Positions 250 through 18,982 of a stretch of DNA of 45,948 bases are shown piece after piece (position 1 is the stretch's first letter; each line of letters begins with the position of its first letter). This DNA is from Oscillospiraceae bacterium. Its GTDB lineage: Bacteria > Bacillota > Clostridia > Oscillospirales > Ruminococcaceae. Below the pieces are notes generated by a model. The model was not told the origin of the DNA and ran no database searches. It saw only the letters and a program-made list of their open reading frames with translations. The position numbers and the translations under genes are program-made. The DNA is taken from the NCBI GenBank assembly GCA_018110925.1, contig JAGAZJ010000008.1, positions 1-45,948 of the forward strand. Direction: 5' to 3'.

Positions 250-355
250 TAGGTGTGCGGGCCCTGTGCAACAAAACACCGTGAACCATGTCAGGCGGGG
301 AACCGAGCAGCATTAAGCGGTACGTTTCGTGTGCCGCAGCAAGCCTGCACACCTA
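250..355 (+). ncRNA. ffs: Signal recognition particle RNA, small bacterial (4.5S-like) form
   Basis: The ends pair perfectly (TAGGTGTGC at 250-258 with GCACACCTA at 347-355), giving one long hairpin. The apex holds the conserved domain IV: GTCAGG (290-295) opposite GAGCAGC (305-311), closed by CGG-GGAA-CCG with a GGAA tetraloop. This is where Ffh binds. There is no room for an Alu domain between promoter and helix, so it is the short form. A T-run at 364-371 follows and may end transcription. The position upstream of dnaX matches the Firmicutes scr/ffs locus. Confidence 0.92.
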
Positions 356-4354: not shown

Positions 4355-6721
4355 ATGACGATAAAAGATCTTGCCTTCGGGCAGAGCGCGGTAATATCCG
4401 CCGTAGGCGGCGAAGGGGCGCTGAGACAGCATTTTCTTGATATGGGAGTTATCCCCGGCGTGAGCGTAAAGATGCTCAAAGCCGCACCGATGGGCGACCC
4501 TGTGGAGATAGAACTGCACGGGTATTCGCTGACACTTCGCCTTGAAGATGCGGCGAGGATTGATGTGACCGAGCAGGCGGCAGAGCCGCTGTCAGAGACA
4601 TCTCCCGAGGTCTGTCCCGAGCCCGATGTGAGGGAGCATCCTCAGTTGGGCGAAGAAAAGGCGCATGAACTGCATATAAAATACCTGCACGTCAGTGAAG
4701 AGCCCGTGAACAACGGCAAGCTGACCTTTGCCCTTGTGGGCAATCAGAACAGCGGTAAGACGACGCTCTTCAACACGCTCACAGGTTCAGACCAGCACGT
4801 AGGCAATTTTCCGGGTGTCACTGTTGACAGAAAGGACGGCGTGATAAAGGGATATCCCGATACAATGGTCACAGACCTGCCGGGGATATACTCCATGTCG
4901 CCGTACAGCCCCGAGGAGATCGTGTCAAGGCAGTTCGTGCTCGATGAAAAGCCCATGGCGATAATAAACATCGTCGATGCCACTAATATCGAGAGAAACC
5001 TCTATCTCACGATGCAGCTCATAGAGATGAACGTGCCTATGGTAGTGGCGCTGAATATGATGGATGAGCTGACGGGCAACGGCGGCAGTGTGGATATAAA
5101 TGCGATGGAGACGCTTCTCGGCGTGCCTGTGGTGCCTATCTCTGCGGCACTTAACAAGGGCGTGGACGAGCTTGTGGAGCACGCTGTACACATTGCGAGA
5201 TATGACGAGCGCCCCATGCGTCAGGATCTGTGCGACAAGGAACGTCACGGCGGCGCTGTACACAGATGTCTGCACGGCATGATACATCTTATCGAGGACA
5301 ATGCCAAAAGGGTGGGTCTGCCCGTAAGATTTGCCGCAAGCAAGCTGGCTGAGGGCGACAAGCTGATAGAAGAACAGCTGGGGCTGGACGACGGGCAGAA
5401 AAACGTATTGGAACAGATGATATCACAGATGGAGCGTGAACGTGGTCTTGACCGCAGTGCGGCGATAGCCGATATGCGCTTTGACTTTATATCAAAGGTC
5501 TGTGCAAGGTGCGTAAAAAAGCCGAGGGAGAGCAAGGAGAGCATCAGGAGCAGGAACATAGACAGGATACTGACAGGCAGATATACTGCCATACCCCTGT
5601 TCGTGCTGATAATGGCGGCGGTATTCTTCCTTACGTTCAACGTGATAGGTGCATTTTTGCAGGGGCTTCTCGAAACGGGCGTGGGAGCGCTGACAGACCT
5701 GGTTGACGCCGCACTGACGGATATGGGCATAAACGAAGCGATACACAGCCTTATAATAAACGGCATATTTGAGGGAGTTGGCAGTGTGCTCAGCTTCCTT
5801 CCGATAATAGTAACACTGTTTTTCTTCCTCTCCCTGCTGGAGGACAGCGGATATATCGCAAGGGTAGCGTTCTTTATGGATAAGCCCCTGAGAAAGATAG
5901 GCCTCTCGGGGCGCAGTATAGTGCCCATGCTGGTGGGCTTCGGCTGCACCGTGCCTGCTGTCATGGCCACAAGGACACTGCCCAGTGAGCGTGACAGAAA
6001 GCTCACCATACTGCTGACTCCCTTTATGAGCTGCACCGCAAAGGTGCCTATATACGGCTTCTTTGTGGATGCTTTCTTCCCTCATTACGGCTGGCTCATA
6101 ATGACGGGACTGTATTTTCTCGGCATATTGGTGGGAATACTCACATCGTTGCTTTATAAGAAGACGATATTCAGGGGCGAGGCAGTCCCCTTTGTGATGG
6201 AACTGCCGAATTACCGTATGCCGGGGGCAAAAAACGTTTTGCAGCTGCTGAAAGAAAAGTCAAAGGACTTTTTGCAGAGGGCGTTCTCCGTCATACTGGT
6301 GGCAACTGTTGTGATATGGTTCCTGAAGAGCTTTGATATGCGCTTCAACATGGTGCCCGAAAATTCCGACAGCAGCATACTTGCGGCGGCGGCAGGCGTA
6401 TTCGTGCCGCTGTTCAAGCCCCTCGGCCTCGGTGACTGGAGGATATGCGTATCCTTCGTCAGCGGATTTCTTGCAAAGGAGAGCGTGGTATCCACCCTCG
6501 GAGTGCTCTTTGCCGACGGTATAGGCACGTCGCTCACTGCATCCTCTGCGGCGGCGATGCTGGTGTTCAGTCTGCTCTATACGCCCTGTGTGGCGGCTGT
6601 GGCGGCTGTAAGGCGTGAGCTCGGCGGCAAATGGGCGGTGTCGGTGGTGGTGCTTCAATGCCTTATCGCATGGATAGCGGCGTTCATCGTTAGGATGATA
6701 CTCGTTTCCGCCGGTATGTGA
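4355..6721 (+). CDS. feoB: Ferrous iron transporter, FeoA-FeoB fusion
   Basis: A 788-residue protein that imports Fe(II) across the cytoplasmic membrane. Start ATG 4355 has AAGGAG at 4343-4348. Residues 1-71 are a complete FeoA domain (SH3-like, with LRQHFLDMGVIPG). A charged linker (72-120) leads to the FeoB GTPase: G1 GNQNSGKT (129-136), G2 around GVTVD (154-158), G3 DLPG (174-177), G4 NMMD (234-237). Two Gate-type membrane regions follow, with GFGCTVPAVMATRTL and the later SFVSGFLAKESVVSTLGVLF segment. Separate feoA and feoB genes are more common; here both are one chain, so FeoA cannot act apart from FeoB. The next gene encodes the usual small Cys-rich FeoB partner. Fe(II) uptake fits an anaerobe; no Fur box was identified. 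Confidence 0.95.
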   Translation: MTIKDLAFGQSAVISAVGGEGALRQHFLDMGVIPGVSVKMLKAAPMGDPVEIELHGYSLTLRLEDAARIDVTEQAAEPLSETSPEVCPEPDVREHPQLGEEKAHELHIKYLHVSEEPVNNGKLTFALVGNQNSGKTTLFNTLTGSDQHVGNFPGVTVDRKDGVIKGYPDTMVTDLPGIYSMSPYSPEEIVSRQFVLDEKPMAIINIVDATNIERNLYLTMQLIEMNVPMVVALNMMDELTGNGGSVDINAMETLLGVPVVPISAALNKGVDELVEHAVHIARYDERPMRQDLCDKERHGGAVHRCLHGMIHLIEDNAKRVGLPVRFAASKLAEGDKLIEEQLGLDDGQKNVLEQMISQMERERGLDRSAAIADMRFDFISKVCARCVKKPRESKESIRSRNIDRILTGRYTAIPLFVLIMAAVFFLTFNVIGAFLQGLLETGVGALTDLVDAALTDMGINEAIHSLIINGIFEGVGSVLSFLPIIVTLFFFLSLLEDSGYIARVAFFMDKPLRKIGLSGRSIVPMLVGFGCTVPAVMATRTLPSERDRKLTILLTPFMSCTAKVPIYGFFVDAFFPHYGWLIMTGLYFLGILVGILTSLLYKKTIFRGEAVPFVMELPNYRMPGAKNVLQLLKEKSKDFLQRAFSVILVATVVIWFLKSFDMRFNMVPENSDSSILAAAAGVFVPLFKPLGLGDWRICVSFVSGFLAKESVVSTLGVLFADGIGTSLTASSAAAMLVFSLLYTPCVAAVAAVRRELGGKWAVSVVVLQCLIAWIAAFIVRMILVSAGM

Positions 6722-7949: not shown

Positions 7950-8875
7950 TGTTATCGGTCATTCTTCCTGCGTATAATGAGGAAAAAAACATAGCCCCTG
8001 CGGCGGAGCGCATATCGGAAGTGCTGACCGCCGAGGGGATAGAATACGAGATCATCTTTGTCGATGACGGCTCCAAGGACGGTACATGGTCAGAGATAAA
8101 GGCCGCCTCGGTCAGAGATCCTTCCGTGAGAGGCAGACATTTCTCACGCAATTTCGGCAAGGAAGCGGCGATGTTTGCAGGACTTGACAGCGTGAGGGGC
8201 GATTGTGCGGTAGTGCTCGACAGCGACCTTCAGCATCCGCCGGAGAAGATAATCGAGATGTACAGGCTCTGGGAGCAGGGCTATGAGGTCATAGAGGGCA
8301 TAAAGGACGACAGGGGCAGTGAGAGCGTATTTCACCGCTTTGCGGCCGATTCCTTCTACGGGCTCATGAGCAGGGCGACAAAGATAGATATGTCTTCGTC
8401 CTCAGATTTCAAGCTCCTTGACAGAAAGGTAGTGGATACCCTCAACGCCATGCCCGAAAAGCACGTCTTTTTCCGTGCCATGTCATTCTGGGTGGGATTC
8501 AGGCGTGCCGAGGTGAGGTACAGTGTTCAGGCCCGCACGGCAGGCGAGAGCAAGTGGTCAACATGGTCGCTGGTAAAATATGCTCTCAACAACATAACCT
8601 CGTTTTCCGCCGCACCTCTGCATCTGATAACGGTGCTCGGCTATGCCATGCTGATAGTGAGCGTTGTGTTCGGTGTCATCTCTCTGGTGCAGAAGTTCAT
8701 GAATGTGGCACAGGAGGGCTTCACGACAGTGAACATACTCCTGCTTTTTTCCGCAAGCGTCATTATGATAAGTCTCGGCATAATAGGCTTCTATATAGAA
8801 AGGATATATGATGAGATCAAGGGCAGACCGCGCTACATCGTAGCGGAGGAATGCGGCAGTGATAACATCGGGTGA
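7949..8875 (+). CDS. Family 2 glycosyltransferase, GtrB/DPM1-like with C-terminal membrane helices
   Basis: A 308-residue enzyme. ATG 7949 overlaps the upstream TGA by one base (a GTG one codon earlier is the alternative). It has a GT-A fold with ILPAYNEEKN (5-14), FVDDGSKDGTW (37-47), the metal/nucleotide-sugar motif DSD (91-93) followed by LQHPPE, and FKLLDRKV. Two C-terminal hydrophobic hairpins (about 225-250 and 265-290) match the GtrB/ArnC/DPM1 layout. Such enzymes move a sugar from a nucleotide donor to undecaprenyl or polyprenyl phosphate on the cytoplasmic face. The sugar and final glycan are unknown and no partner flippase lies nearby. Confidence 0.9.
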   Translation: MLSVILPAYNEEKNIAPAAERISEVLTAEGIEYEIIFVDDGSKDGTWSEIKAASVRDPSVRGRHFSRNFGKEAAMFAGLDSVRGDCAVVLDSDLQHPPEKIIEMYRLWEQGYEVIEGIKDDRGSESVFHRFAADSFYGLMSRATKIDMSSSSDFKLLDRKVVDTLNAMPEKHVFFRAMSFWVGFRRAEVRYSVQARTAGESKWSTWSLVKYALNNITSFSAAPLHLITVLGYAMLIVSVVFGVISLVQKFMNVAQEGFTTVNILLLFSASVIMISLGIIGFYIERIYDEIKGRPRYIVAEECGSDNIG

Positions 8876-15047: not shown

Positions 15048-15701
15048 TTGAATACCATAGTTTCAGCATCGATACTGAGTGCCGACCTTTGCAGGCTCGG
15101 CGATGATATAGACAGAGCCCGCAGGGGCGGCGCAGACCATATACACTTTGATGTTATGGACGGCGTTTTCGTAAACAACATCAGCTACGGCATACCCGTG
15201 CTGAAAAGTGTCAGAAAGCATACGGATATGTTCATTGACGCTCATCTGATGATAACCGACCCGTCACGCTATATAAAGGCATTTGCCGATGCGGGTGCGG
15301 ACAATATAACATTCCATATCGAGGCTGCTCCCGACCCTCTTGATACCATCGCAAGGATAGGAGCGGAGGGGAAGAAGGCAGGCATCGCAGTGAAGCCTGC
15401 TACGCCTGTCAGCAGTGTGTATGGCCTTGCAGACAAGGTCGATATGATACTCATAATGACGGTGGAGCCGGGTTTCGGCGGTCAGGGCTTCATATATGAG
15501 ACGCTTGACAAGATAAGAGAGCTGAGGGCATATCTTGACAAAAACGCTCCTCATGTGCATATACAGGTAGACGGCGGCATAAACGCCGAGACCTCCGCTC
15601 TCGTGAGAGAGGCAGGCGCCGATGTGCTGGTGGCAGGGTCTTATCTGTTTGGTGCGGAGGATATGTCTGCGGCGGTCTCTTCGCTCAGGGGCGGCAAGTG
15701 A
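15048..15701 (+). CDS. rpe: Ribulose-phosphate 3-epimerase
   Basis: A 217-residue TIM-barrel enzyme that interconverts ribulose 5-phosphate and xylulose 5-phosphate in the pentose phosphate pathway. The start is TTG 15048, with AAAGGAGA at 15033-15040; the encoded MNTIVSASILSADLCRLG is the family N-terminus. Catalytic and metal-binding segments are visible: HFDVMDGVFVNNISYG, DAHLMI, MTVEPGFGGQGF and VDGGINAET. It is first in an operon with the Rnf-like genes; the next start (GTG) overlaps its stop. The transketolase halves at 37645-39436 act in the same pathway. Confidence 0.95.
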   Translation: MNTIVSASILSADLCRLGDDIDRARRGGADHIHFDVMDGVFVNNISYGIPVLKSVRKHTDMFIDAHLMITDPSRYIKAFADAGADNITFHIEAAPDPLDTIARIGAEGKKAGIAVKPATPVSSVYGLADKVDMILIMTVEPGFGGQGFIYETLDKIRELRAYLDKNAPHVHIQVDGGINAETSALVREAGADVLVAGSYLFGAEDMSAAVSSLRGGK

Positions 15702-16600
15702 GCGGCAGAAAAGATATAGCAGGCAGTGCGGTGCTGGCGGTGTCACTCATGGCGGCAGACGGTGCGGCGGTGTACTGCTACGGGCTCCGTGCGCTGATAG
15801 TCGTGGTGATATGTGCAGGCGTGTGTGTGCTATGCGATATGATATGCACCGTGGCAAGGCGCAGGCATCTCGATCTCAGCGACCTATCCTCGCTCACCAC
15901 GGGTCTTGCGCTGGCGGCAATGTTCCCGGCATCCGTTCCCTACTGGGTGTGCGTGATGAGCTGTGTCTTCGCGGTGTGTGTGGTCAAGCACCCTCTAGGC
16001 GGTCTTGTACCGCCTGCGGCGGCAGGATATATATTTGCGGAGCTGTCATTCCCTGCGGGCGTGCTGAGATACCCCAGAATGGGCATCCTTGCTATCGGAA
16101 ATATTACGGACGGGCTTTACAGGCTGTCTGATATGAATGTGTTCTCAGACAACTCGCCGTATTCCGATTTTGAGATGATGATAGGCAGGATACCCGGCCC
16201 TATGGCGTGCGGCTTTGTGGTACTCCACGTCATATGTGCGCTGGTGCTTGTATATTCGCATAAAAGCTCGCTCACGGTCTTTCTGATGCCCGTTGTGACG
16301 ACGGTACTGTGGTGCGGTGTGTTTGACGGCGCAGACAGGGCGAGAGCCGCACTTTTCGGCGGTATGCTCGTTTTCTGCTCGGCGTATATATCCTCTGCTG
16401 TGGGATATGTGCCCGAAAAAAAGGCCTCACGGGTGATATATGCGGTCTTTCTCTCTGCTGTCACCATAGCCGTGACAGAGATATCCGCAGTCGAATCGCC
16501 TGCGGTCTATGCGTGTGTGCTGTGCGCTCCGTTCAGGACACTTGAAAAGATAACATCGGGCGGTGATGACCTACGGACAGAGCAAAAGGCGAAAAGCTGA
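15698..16600 (+). CDS. rnfD: Rnf-like membrane subunit D (divergent RnfD/NqrB family)
   Basis: A 300-residue polytopic membrane protein starting at GTG 15698, overlapping the rpe stop (GTGA). Family marks: LTTGLALAAMFPASVPYW, KHPLGGLVPPAAAGYIF in place of the canonical GG-x-G-x-N-(I/P)FNPA-x-x-GY, and IGRIPGP (162-168) for the canonical G-x-IPGS. RnfD normally carries FMN covalently on a Thr in SGAT and is part of an Na+/H+-pumping ferredoxin:NAD+ oxidoreductase. Here the motif reads SDNS (150-153), so GA is lost and Ser replaces Thr, and the NPFNPA block is eroded. It is followed by E- and A-like subunits only. Fold confident; electron-transport function doubtful. Confidence 0.85.
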   Translation: MSGRKDIAGSAVLAVSLMAADGAAVYCYGLRALIVVVICAGVCVLCDMICTVARRRHLDLSDLSSLTTGLALAAMFPASVPYWVCVMSCVFAVCVVKHPLGGLVPPAAAGYIFAELSFPAGVLRYPRMGILAIGNITDGLYRLSDMNVFSDNSPYSDFEMMIGRIPGPMACGFVVLHVICALVLVYSHKSSLTVFLMPVVTTVLWCGVFDGADRARAALFGGMLVFCSAYISSAVGYVPEKKASRVIYAVFLSAVTIAVTEISAVESPAVYACVLCAPFRTLEKITSGGDDLRTEQKAKS

Positions 16601-17160
16601 ATACAGAGGGGCTGTTCTCGCACAACCCCGTTTTTGCCGCAGGAATGGCGCTCGCTCCTGCCGTTGCGGTCACAGCCACCCTTGGCGGAGCGCTGTGCTA
16701 TGCGGCGATATTCTCGGTAGTGACGCTGGTATCGCTCTATCTGTCGTCATTCCTGCCGAGAAAGCTGCCCTATGCGCTCAGAGTCATACTCTATGCGTTC
16801 ATTGCGGCGGCGGTGTATATCCCGATAAATATACTGCTGTACGACAGGCTCTCCGACGGTCTTGCGAATGTGGGAGTGCTTCTGCCGATGATAGCCACGG
16901 GCGAGTTTGTCGTGTCGGTCTCGGAGATGAGGTTTTTCAGAAAGAAAAAGCGCTCCGAGATGGTGTGGGATATATATTTTCATATAATGGGCTATGATAC
17001 AGCGCTGATACTCCTGGGCGCCATAAGGGAGATGTCGTCTAAGGGCGAGCTTTTGAGCAATATGATAGGTGTCGTGCCGTCACTGCCCTTGCTTGCATAC
17101 CCATGCGGAGGATTTCTTCTGATAGGGCTGATAGGTGCGCTGGTGAGATATTTTTCTTAA
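16597..17160 (+). CDS. rnfE: Rnf-like membrane subunit E (RnfE/NqrD family) lacking Fe-S cysteines; probable CTG start
   Basis: Family RnfE/NqrD, six helices. The first ATG (16645) gives 171 residues but starts inside the conserved first helix. The frame is open upstream and encodes GLFSHNPVFAAGMALAPAVA, which aligns without gaps with the canonical RnfE start ([20 protein letters not shown] in E. coli). No ATG, GTG or TTG is available there; CTG 16597, overlapping the rnfD stop as CTGA, is the best start and gives 187 residues. Canonical Cys in GLCP is Ala 20, and Cys in VTNC is Glu 103 (IATGEFVV). These cysteines normally ligate the intramembrane [2Fe-2S] cluster. ILLGAIREMSSKGEL keeps the family LGSLREI motif. 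Confidence 0.85.
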   Translation: MNTEGLFSHNPVFAAGMALAPAVAVTATLGGALCYAAIFSVVTLVSLYLSSFLPRKLPYALRVILYAFIAAAVYIPINILLYDRLSDGLANVGVLLPMIATGEFVVSVSEMRFFRKKKRSEMVWDIYFHIMGYDTALILLGAIREMSSKGELLSNMIGVVPSLPLLAYPCGGFLLIGLIGALVRYFS

Positions 17161-17173
17161 AGGGGCGCTGTGC

Positions 17174-17755
17174 GTGTCTGTACTTATATCGGCGGTCACG
17201 GCGGTGATCGCATCGAATATGGTGTTTACAAGGGCTTTCGGAGTGAGCGTGGCGCTGACTGCGGCTTCAAATCCCAAAAAGCTTTTCGGCATATGTGCGG
17301 CGGTGACGTGGTTCTGCGTCACTTCGTCTGCGGCGGTATGGGCGCTTGCACATTTTGAGGGCATAGGCATAAACAGATCCTATGTGCCGATGCTCTACGT
17401 CACGGTCATAGGTGCTATATACTCGCTGACGCTTTACCTGTCGGCGGCATTCATGAAGAAGCATTTCAGAGCTGTAAAGAAATATATTCATATAGCCGCC
17501 TTCAACAGTCTTGTAATGGGTACGGCATACCTTTCATCGTCTGGCAGGGAAACGCTTGCGGAATATATCGGCTTCGGCTTTTTGTCGGGTCTGGGATTTA
17601 CCTTTGCGGCGTTCCTTCTTGCGGCGGTGAATACGAAACTTCGCTCTGACGACGTGCCGCAGGTGTTCAGAGGATACCCTGCGATAATGATATTCATCGG
17701 TGTGATATCAATGGCGATGCTCGGCATACTGGGGTATGCGCCCTCATATATGTGA
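17174..17755 (+). CDS. rnfA: Rnf-like membrane subunit A (RnfA/NqrE family) lacking Fe-S cysteines
   Basis: A 193-residue, six-helix protein; start GTG 17174 with AAAGGGG at 17159-17165. It matches canonical RnfA (190-193 residues) nearly end to end: the N-terminal helix SNMVFTRAFGVSVAL, FGFLSGLGFTFAAFLLA and the C-terminal VPQVFRGYPAIMIFIGVIS. The two cluster-binding cysteines are replaced: canonical FLGICPFLG reads AFGVSVALT (Ser 25), and canonical LITTNCAVLG reads HIAAFNSLVMG (Ser 112). Other cysteines (41, 48) lie elsewhere in helix 2. With RnfE also lacking its pair, no [2Fe-2S] site is left. The gene lies 13 nt after rnfE; no rnfB follows, unlike normal rnf operons. Confidence 0.88.
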   Translation: MSVLISAVTAVIASNMVFTRAFGVSVALTAASNPKKLFGICAAVTWFCVTSSAAVWALAHFEGIGINRSYVPMLYVTVIGAIYSLTLYLSAAFMKKHFRAVKKYIHIAAFNSLVMGTAYLSSSGRETLAEYIGFGFLSGLGFTFAAFLLAAVNTKLRSDDVPQVFRGYPAIMIFIGVISMAMLGILGYAPSYM

Positions 17756-17776: not shown

Positions 17777-18982
17777 ATGAGAAAAAAGAAAAAGATATTC
17801 CGCCCGAGACGGCGGTACAGGATAAAAAAGAAAAATGAAAATGCGGCAAAGATAGTGATAAGCGTGGTGGCGCTGGCGGTGCTCGTATTCGTGGGATACA
17901 GCGCAATGGGTCCTATCACCGAATATATAGAGCGTTCACGCAATGCAGAGACCGAGCCGTGGACACCGCCCTCACAGACGGATGTGCCCCCGGAAGAGAC
18001 ACCCGACACGCCGTCGCAGACTGCCGGAACGACTGCTGTCGAGCCTGAGCAGACCGAGCAGACGGTCATATCCGCAGTGCCGAGGAATGTTCACAGCGGC
18101 CGTGCGATCATGCTTGAAGACGGTGCATCAGCGGATATGCAGACACTTTCTCTTGCTCTGGACAACGCTGCCGCAGACGGATGCGGCGCCGTGATAGTGC
18201 CTTTGAAGACAGAGGGCGGTGTGTACAGGTACAAGAGCGAGCTTGAAGCTGTTTCAATGTGTGAGACGAGCCCTGTCAGGTCTGAGCTCACCGCAAAGGA
18301 GATATGCTCCGCTATAACCTCCAGAGGTCTTGTGCCCGTGGCATATGTGTCTGTGCTTACCGACAACAACAGATACGGTGCCGACAGGATCGGTGCTTAC
18401 AGATCCTCCGACGGCAAGGTGTGGGTTGACGGCAATCCTGCACTGGGCGGCAAACCGTGGATATCACCCTTTGAGGAGAGCGGCGTGACTTTGCTCTGCG
18501 ATACCATGACAGAGATAGGCAGTGCAGGATTTTCAAGGATAATATGCGGCGATTTTGTATTCCCCGAATTTGAGGAGAGAGACCTTGCTATGCTGTCGGG
18601 CGTGTCCTCGGCGGATGAACGCTCGGCAGCGGTGACTACCCTTGCGAAGCGCATGACCAATGCCGCAAGGGGCGCAGGCTCGGATATCATGATAAGGGCG
18701 ACGGCGGAGGAAGTTATCAGGGGCAGTGAGCTGTTCGTGCCCGACAAGCTGGGCGGATGTACGGTGGTGATCGACTGCGGCGATGCTTCAAGAGTGAAGT
18801 CGGTGGCAGGCAATGACATATCCACCCTCGATGCGGCGCACAAGACGACTGCTGTCTATACAGAGGCGCTCCGCCATGCGGACGGTCTGGAATGTTACCC
18901 GATGTTCAGATATACCGTGAATGCGGACCGTGTCGCAGAGGCATTTTCCGATATAGGCTGTGAGAGCTGTTATGTGTATTGA
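17777..18982 (+). CDS. Membrane-anchored putative glycoside hydrolase-like protein (DUF4015-like)
   Basis: A 401-residue protein. ATG 17777 follows CGGAGA. A very basic N-terminus (residues 1-20 with 13 Lys/Arg) and one helix (about 24-43) place the rest outside the cell. A Pro/Thr/Glu linker (about 56-98) leads to a TIM-barrel-like domain (about 108-401). KPWISPFEESGVTLLCDTM and GFSRIICGDFVFPEF resemble the WLNPY...GFDEIQFDYVRFP core of the DUF4015 putative glycosidase family, but the usual second Asp/Tyr-Arg in FDYVRFP is changed to GDFVFP, so activity is uncertain. It lies 22 nt after rnfA and overlaps miaB, so it is probably co-transcribed with the Rnf-like genes. Assignment is by remembered motifs. 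Confidence 0.7.
   Translation: MRKKKKIFRPRRRYRIKKKNENAAKIVISVVALAVLVFVGYSAMGPITEYIERSRNAETEPWTPPSQTDVPPEETPDTPSQTAGTTAVEPEQTEQTVISAVPRNVHSGRAIMLEDGASADMQTLSLALDNAAADGCGAVIVPLKTEGGVYRYKSELEAVSMCETSPVRSELTAKEICSAITSRGLVPVAYVSVLTDNNRYGADRIGAYRSSDGKVWVDGNPALGGKPWISPFEESGVTLLCDTMTEIGSAGFSRIICGDFVFPEFEERDLAMLSGVSSADERSAAVTTLAKRMTNAARGAGSDIMIRATAEEVIRGSELFVPDKLGGCTVVIDCGDASRVKSVAGNDISTLDAAHKTTAVYTEALRHADGLECYPMFRYTVNADRVAEAFSDIGCESCYVY

Follow-up and report, generated by a model that had tools for sequence, protein, structure and literature searches.

What is the membrane core of an Rnf complex for once it has lost the cysteines that hold its iron-sulfur cluster? The question is raised by a 45,948-nucleotide stretch of an Oscillospiraceae bacterium genome (contig JAGAZJ010000008.1 of assembly GCA_018110925.1; hereafter, the window), in which three adjoining genes at 15698–17755, here called D, E, and A, are homologs of rnfD, rnfE, and rnfA. 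A first-pass annotation, made from the letters alone, had proposed this homology, which Pfam and PDB chain matches confirm. It had also read the trio as an Rnf-derived, now non-redox module, possibly a transporter or a scaffold, and this reading is supported by the clade, the neighboring genes, the selection, and the missing rnfB, rnfC, and rnfG described below. Judged from sequence, the trio is a paralog of the canonical Rnf membrane core, and the loss of the cluster shared by A and E is well supported.

The three genes lie on the forward strand, overlap or are closely spaced, and are open over their full length, as first annotated. D (15698–16600, GTG start) matches PF03116 (E-value 1.1e-32), E (16597–17160, open from 16570) matches PF02508 (2.8e-24), and A (17174–17755, GTG start) matches the same family (4.8e-24). 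All three Pfam matches are over the cut-off, yet the proteins score far below the NCBIfam rnf cut-offs; the best PDB matches are RnfD chains for D, RnfE and NqrD chains for E, and RnfA and NqrE chains for A. At the four cluster-ligand columns, which align without gaps to the solved RnfA, RnfE, NqrD, and NqrE chains, every cysteine is replaced, in agreement with the first reading. A has Ser at the column of Cys25 of RnfA (17246–17248) and again at that of Cys113 (17507–17509; residue 112 of the window protein, directly after an invariant Asn), and E has Ala at the column of Cys25 of RnfE (16654–16656) and Glu at that of Cys108 (16903–16905). The replacements in E stand, with the proviso that their earlier numbering (A20, E103) presupposes a CTG start at 16597. 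The frame of E holds no ATG, GTG, or TTG before 16645; the CTG at 16597 overlaps the stop of D (CTGA), and an ATG in some relatives (e.g., genome G004) sits near that position. The frame suggests CTG initiation of E, or else a base error in the assembly.

An alignment error at the ligand columns was considered and ruled out, the alignment being gap-free against both the solved chains and canonical paralogs of the same genus. Relocation of the ligands was likewise rejected: the only cysteines conserved in the window's genus are Cys41 of A (15/15) and Cys179 of E (12/14), neither of them at a ligand column nor conserved in the wider clade (15/74 and 12/73, respectively), and because two cysteines cannot make a four-cysteine site, the ligands have not simply moved. 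The first-pass statement that the family motifs are preserved away from the redox sites holds in part: of the canonical-invariant columns, A of the window retains 17 of 55, E 21 of 45, and D 19 of 52, so that most are changed (38, 24, and 33, respectively). Among the changed positions are the flavin columns of D, where FMN-Thr156, Asn123, and Asp249 are met by a gap, Pro, and Ala.

A scan of genome contigs with alignment-derived queries recovered 51 related loci, where the same scan queried with a single A protein had given no match. Because the scan was biased toward the patterns KY[VI]HISAF and M[IL][FY][TIS]G..., we also searched 295 genomes from the order. The 51 loci come from Oscillospiraceae, Ruminococcus, Clostridia, or Clostridiales records, two of which are from cultured strains of R. 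flavefaciens, and among the matches listed in the order search are additional members, spread over several genera of this family and two other families. Site counts cover 74 A, 73 E, and 71 D proteins in Acetobacterium woodii numbering, with proteins cut by a contig edge counted only where the letter is present and with 14 loci that duplicate congeneric genomes dropped. They are compared with 22 canonical rows (20 Rnf loci from within the order plus two structures), which were chosen after reading their cysteines, a choice with which the trees agree.

All four columns can be read in 71 loci, of which 26 have no ligand cysteine (14/14 in the window's genus and 12 further loci), 45 have one, and none has two or more. 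By column, cysteine is found in 0/74 proteins at Cys25 of A, 45/74 at the second cysteine of A (the usual single survivor), 2/73 at Cys25 of E, and 0/73 at Cys108 of E. All four are kept in 22/22 canonical rows and in the best 26 loci outside the order from a 391-genome search of the class; those 26 loci suggest that the clade is absent outside one order, putatively Oscillospirales. A clade of the kind for which the first pass had asked is separate from canonical Rnf, but Cys-poor overall rather than Cys-less. In A. woodii Rnf, removing these cysteines cost the complex two Fe and abolished activity and growth (PMC11889175; papers are cited here and below from excerpts), and by the site chemistry known from that excerpt a single retained cysteine cannot hold a four-cysteine cluster. 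Titles and abstract openings in the open-access literature yielded no description of a Cys-less, paralogous, or non-redox Rnf clade.

The first-pass annotation had also found rnfB, rnfC, and rnfG absent from the operon. None of them stands beside the trio in the window (no genome-wide search with an RnfB profile was made); for rnfC the statement holds there but not for five related operons, in which an rnfC-like gene survives whose product lacks the FMN/NADH loop. The relatives form a series. Three loci of one family (L205, L208, and L211) hold a complete rnfC-D-G-E-A-B followed by a DUF4015 gene, with FMN_bind in G, FeS in B, and PF13200 all over their cut-offs. The same rnfCDGEAB-DUF4015 layout recurs with weaker parts in a second family (L206, L207, and L212), where FMN_bind is over the cut-off in G only in L212, FeS is found in B in L206 and L212 (L207 matches only 4Fe-4S models), and DUF4015 passes its cut-off in L206 and L207, whereas the L212 gene in that position encodes a protein without a Pfam match. 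All four A/E cysteines are present in these six loci. The five operons with the rnfC-like gene (rnfC'; L140–L143 and L210) read rpe, rnfC', D, E, A; DUF4015 is next after A in L141, L142, and L210, seems by eye to be truncated at the end of the contig in L140, and does not adjoin A in L143. Their RnfC' proteins lack the Gly-rich FMN/NADH loop (5/5) and have lost the cysteine of the AECEPY stretch, which is also missing from one canonical row, and they keep both 4Fe-4S cysteine sets (5/5). Searching 87 stretches (73 distinct places, of which some are truncated on the upstream side) with a profile of the RnfC' protein turned up no further copy next to the trio; there was one weak match in L061, on the other strand and far from the trio. 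The series suggests a path from rnfCDGEAB-DUF4015 through rpe-rnfC'DEA-DUF4015 to rpe-DEA-DUF4015. No open-access paper containing both words, DUF4015 and Rnf, was found.

A phylogeny of D, E, and A from 72 loci divides the canonical from the derived proteins with full support (UFBoot 100; stem length 1.18), and the rnfC-bearing derived loci branch near the canonical stem, alongside some loci without rnfC; local supports there range from 61 to 100. When the cysteine columns are masked, the derived A proteins are monophyletic in a tree rooted with NqrE (support 0.97), and the E tree, rooted with NqrD, returns the same grouping with a support of only 0.15. One further locus, L209 (genome G228), has a lipoprotein-like gene (by eye) between D and E at 5400–6188, an E with one remaining ligand cysteine, and, where DUF4015 would otherwise follow A, a short protein with a single hydrophobic segment at 8017–8421.

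The trio coexists with canonical Rnf in some genomes and stands alone in others. The window genome is 69% complete, and most relatives are metagenome-assembled genomes or drafts, so absences beyond the loci read are soft; in the window genome there is no other PF02508 or PF03116 match and no RnfC_N match. Of 20 genomes of the genus, 15 have the diverged A, 14 of these also the diverged E (the contig of G012 ends there), and five have neither diverged nor canonical proteins; the canonical pair alone occurs in 0/20. Canonical-scoring RnfA/E are also present in seven of the 15 trio genomes (one of the two proteins in G009), on contigs shared with RnfC_N and FMN_bind matches, and both R. flavefaciens genomes likewise have the trio together with canonical-scoring RnfA/E. 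The other eight trio genomes, including G005 (97% complete) and G017 (99%), have no canonical A/E match. As for INDEPENDENCE from redox partners, G017 has D-E-A and DUF4015 and no match to canonical A/E, RnfC_N, ApbE, or FMN_bind; ApbE is found in 9/15 congeneric trio genomes. In the window genome (G000, contig C15), ApbE and FMN_bind matches lie at 51057–51863 and 60806–61072, about 9 kb apart, with no canonical RnfA/E found; the FMN_bind match is the only one and falls in a 142-amino-acid frame.

The genes that flank the trio are as constant as the first pass had anticipated. In the window, the ribulose-phosphate 3-epimerase gene rpe (15048–15701, forward strand; PF00834, E-value 7.6e-72) precedes D, its stop overlapping the GTG start, and the gene for a DUF4015 protein (17777–18982, forward strand; PF13200, 8.9e-8) follows A at its 3′ side, giving the order rpe, D, E, A, DUF4015, after which come miaB-, ylbF-, and mutS-like genes (by eye). 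Across the clade, rpe is labelled upstream in 45/51 loci, the contigs of the other six beginning within the trio, and in 33/33 of a second set; DUF4015 lies 3′ of A in 49/51 loci, the other two ending at a contig edge, and in 31/33 of the second set. Around the trio in those 33 loci there is no other conserved gene, although no NqrF profile was run. By clustering, a MecA-like gene on the opposite strand stands between rpe and the operon in 11/33 loci (e.g., L087:5708–6340), and it is PF05389 in the two tested, L087 and L142; because it intervenes on the opposite strand, rpe and D need not share a transcript there. The functional link of rpe, although it is a constant neighbor, is weaker than that of DUF4015.

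In the DUF4015 protein of the window, a putative glycosidase-like domain follows a basic N-terminus and a single hydrophobic segment identified by eye. PF13200 matches 45/45 aligned relatives, and the closest solved chain, 4s1a, is uncharacterized. The family is represented in 18/20 congeneric genomes, four of which do not have the trio. In L215, the order is rpe-DUF4015-miaB with D-E-A missing between, and in L216–L218 DUF4015 is followed by miaB and has neither rpe nor A directly before it (only about 450 upstream bases are present in L217). At 26 other DUF4015 loci, 25 outside the order and one inside, no D, E, or A was found in flanks of up to 1.5 kb. It seems, then, that the trio needs DUF4015 more than DUF4015 needs the trio. 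An Rfam search of the window and four loci for an RNA element that might hint at a substrate gave only a bacterial small SRP RNA (RF00169, window 255–353) and two tRNAs, all in the window.

The sites that remain in the clade speak to what the module might do. Three residues linked to Na+ in A. woodii Rnf are mostly kept, namely Asn112 of A (74/74), Arg67 of E (61/73, with nine more Lys), and Glu115 of E (64/73); Asn112, Arg or Lys67, and Glu115 occur together in 62/71 loci. According to the excerpted mutant data for that complex, R67A did not grow and E115Q and E115K were impaired, while E115A resembled the wild type (PMC11889175). Of the residues of A that contact RnfB, Arg154 is kept in 4/74 proteins and Glu158 in 1/74, and in D the FMN-Thr156 column is Thr in 3/71 and Ser in 55/71. 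New residues found in at least 80% of proteins include, among others, Tyr83, Lys103, His106, and Phe110 in A and Tyr83 and Pro85 in E. The purifying selection named in the first pass is apparent in pairs of relatives: dN/dS, calculated by the Nei-Gojobori method for 16 pairs per gene (48 in total, with the window's own genes not among them), is 0.00–0.21 in 46 comparisons and saturated in two.

From the ancestry, redox-site loss, selection, and linkage read in these sequences, we consider the chances about even that D-E-A works without redox chemistry, as an ion-coupled carrier or channel derived from the Rnf transport core, with the DUF4015 protein as its outer partner. Transport itself would draw on residue retention and on fold analogies in the literature, where excerpts liken the A/E fold to Na+/H+ solute symporters (PMC12174285) and NqrB to urea and ammonium transporters (PMC10643135). 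The fuller version, a first non-redox branch of the Rnf/Nqr family, arisen by operon duplication and acting as an ion or solute carrier that is driven by a gradient and partnered by a membrane-anchored, glycosidase-like protein, we hold somewhat short of an even chance. In the explanation with about even chances, a second, duplicated Rnf operon would have become a redox-free machine in one order, putatively Oscillospirales; the derived operons do lack rnfG and rnfB beside them, and most lack rnfC too. A and E, assumed still to pair, would switch between inward-open and outward-open states around a former metal site that is now polar or charged (Ser, Ser, Ala, and Glu in the window). An existing gradient, and not electron flow, would drive the passage of a coupled solute or of Na+ or H+ as the cation; D might serve as a partner or a second pore, and the membrane-anchored DUF4015 protein might supply or sense the substrate outside.

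Several observations weigh against this carrier. Residues of A on the Na+ path are gone: Glu88 is kept in 0/74 proteins, Thr110 in 0/74 (59 have Ala), and Thr111 is replaced by Phe in 68/74, and in the excerpted A. woodii data T110G did not grow, T111G being without phenotype (PMC11889175). With these three residues lost, the case for Na+ itself as the cargo is not made; E retains its ion pair, A has a remodeled buried site, and transport of a changed substrate therefore fits at least as well as transport of Na+. The route of Na+ is itself disputed, being placed in RnfA/E for A. woodii (PMC11889175, in excerpt) and alternatively in RnfD/NqrB for the Rnf of C. tetanomorphum and the NQR of V. 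cholerae (by the account excerpted from PMC12174285). One ligand cysteine survives in 45/71 loci, and the RnfB-contact residue Lys32 of A is Lys or Arg in 51/74, though not in the window. Two flavin-site residues of D are partly kept in the clade (Asp249 in 54/71, Asn123 in 33/71, both absent from the window), and flavin binding may therefore persist in some members. ApbE and FMN_bind are each matched on another contig of the window genome; since the two lie about 9 kb apart there, ApbE probably has a different client in that genome. Lastly, DUF4015 occurs without the trio in four congeneric genomes, and because it survives so, it does not need the trio.

This last point is part of what commends the main rival, a non-transporting scaffold or sensor in which D-E-A would serve to anchor or position the DUF4015 protein, or some other partner, at the membrane or to regulate it. 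The trio is nearly always followed by DUF4015, which also lives alone, an accessory-like arrangement, and the window has changed most canonical-invariant columns of all three proteins; but Asn112 of A and Arg67 and Glu115 of E, which sit centrally in Rnf, are conserved beyond what an anchor would need, and we regard this reading as unlikely, if to be taken seriously. Less probable again is a module that is still redox-active by another route, with flavin in D, joined in some genera by two 4Fe-4S clusters in RnfC', passing electrons without the A/E cluster. The intact 4Fe-4S cysteine sets of RnfC', the partial retention of Asp249 and Asn123 together with Ser at the FMN-Thr column of D, and the two-subunit Nqr/Rnf-like redox complexes described in excerpts of PMC8238504 and PMC10979944 would suit it. 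Set against them are the D of the window, which has none of these residues and no rnfC beside it, the G017 genome with its trio and no ApbE, RnfC_N, or FMN_bind match, and the missing FMN/NADH loop of RnfC'.

The same genome bears on a hybrid Rnf, in which the trio would replace canonical D-E-A and use RnfB, RnfC, and RnfG in trans. The canonical-scoring RnfA/E of seven congeneric trio genomes and of both R. flavefaciens strains would allow such an exchange, yet eight of the 15 trio genomes, the nearly complete G005 and G017 among them, have no canonical A/E match, and the RnfB contacts of A are eroded at Arg154 and Glu158, if less so at Lys32; we give the hybrid very little credence. Least credible of all are decaying pseudogenes or an assembly artefact. 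E of the window does lack a standard start before 16645, and the trio is missing from several congeneric genomes, but the low dN/dS of its relatives (the window's genes not included) and the open frames in the same gene order across many independent assemblies, two of them of cultured R. flavefaciens, speak otherwise.

Placed beside known systems, the trio differs from each. With Rnf itself (RnfABCDGE; e.g., A. woodii and Clostridium tetanomorphum) the trio shares the homology of D, E, and A, most instances of Asn112 of A and of Arg67 and Glu115 of E, and relatives in which rnfCDGEAB precedes DUF4015. It differs in having no adjoining B, C, or G and no A/E [2Fe-2S] ligands, in the lost flavin residues of D in the window, in the loss of two of three RnfB-contact residues in the clade, and in coexisting, as a paralog, with canonical RnfA/E. 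Na+-NQR (NqrABCDEF) is a precedent for a paralog from a duplicated rnf operon that lost rnfB (PMC4014512, in excerpt), but Nqr gained NqrF as its electron input and keeps its membrane cofactors (PMC12174285, in excerpt), whereas the trio shows no replacement input and has lost its cofactor sites. The two-subunit flavinylated Nqr/Rnf-like systems (PMC8238504, 2021; preprint PMC10979944, 2024) also place an NqrB/RnfD-type domain outside a full Rnf and, like the trio, do not conserve the FMN-Thr of the D-type subunit; as excerpted, they are unlike it in fusing an NAD-binding domain to D, in having an FMN-bind partner, and in their proposed redox role. D of the window matches PF03116 alone among Pfam families, with no such fusion, and RnfA occurs nowhere in the main text of either paper. 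The gene downstream of the trio belongs with the DUF4015 putative glycosidases (PF13200; chain 4s1a), although the 26 other loci of that family have no D, E, or A nearby.

A natural D-E-A without cofactor sites separates transport from redox chemistry, and if ions do move through it, their path and gate could be studied alone. The finding also carries a warning for annotation, since an Rnf complex credited to a genome from RnfA, RnfD, and RnfE alone may be only this paralog. If the favored explanation is true, the transport machinery of Rnf would be separable from its redox motor.

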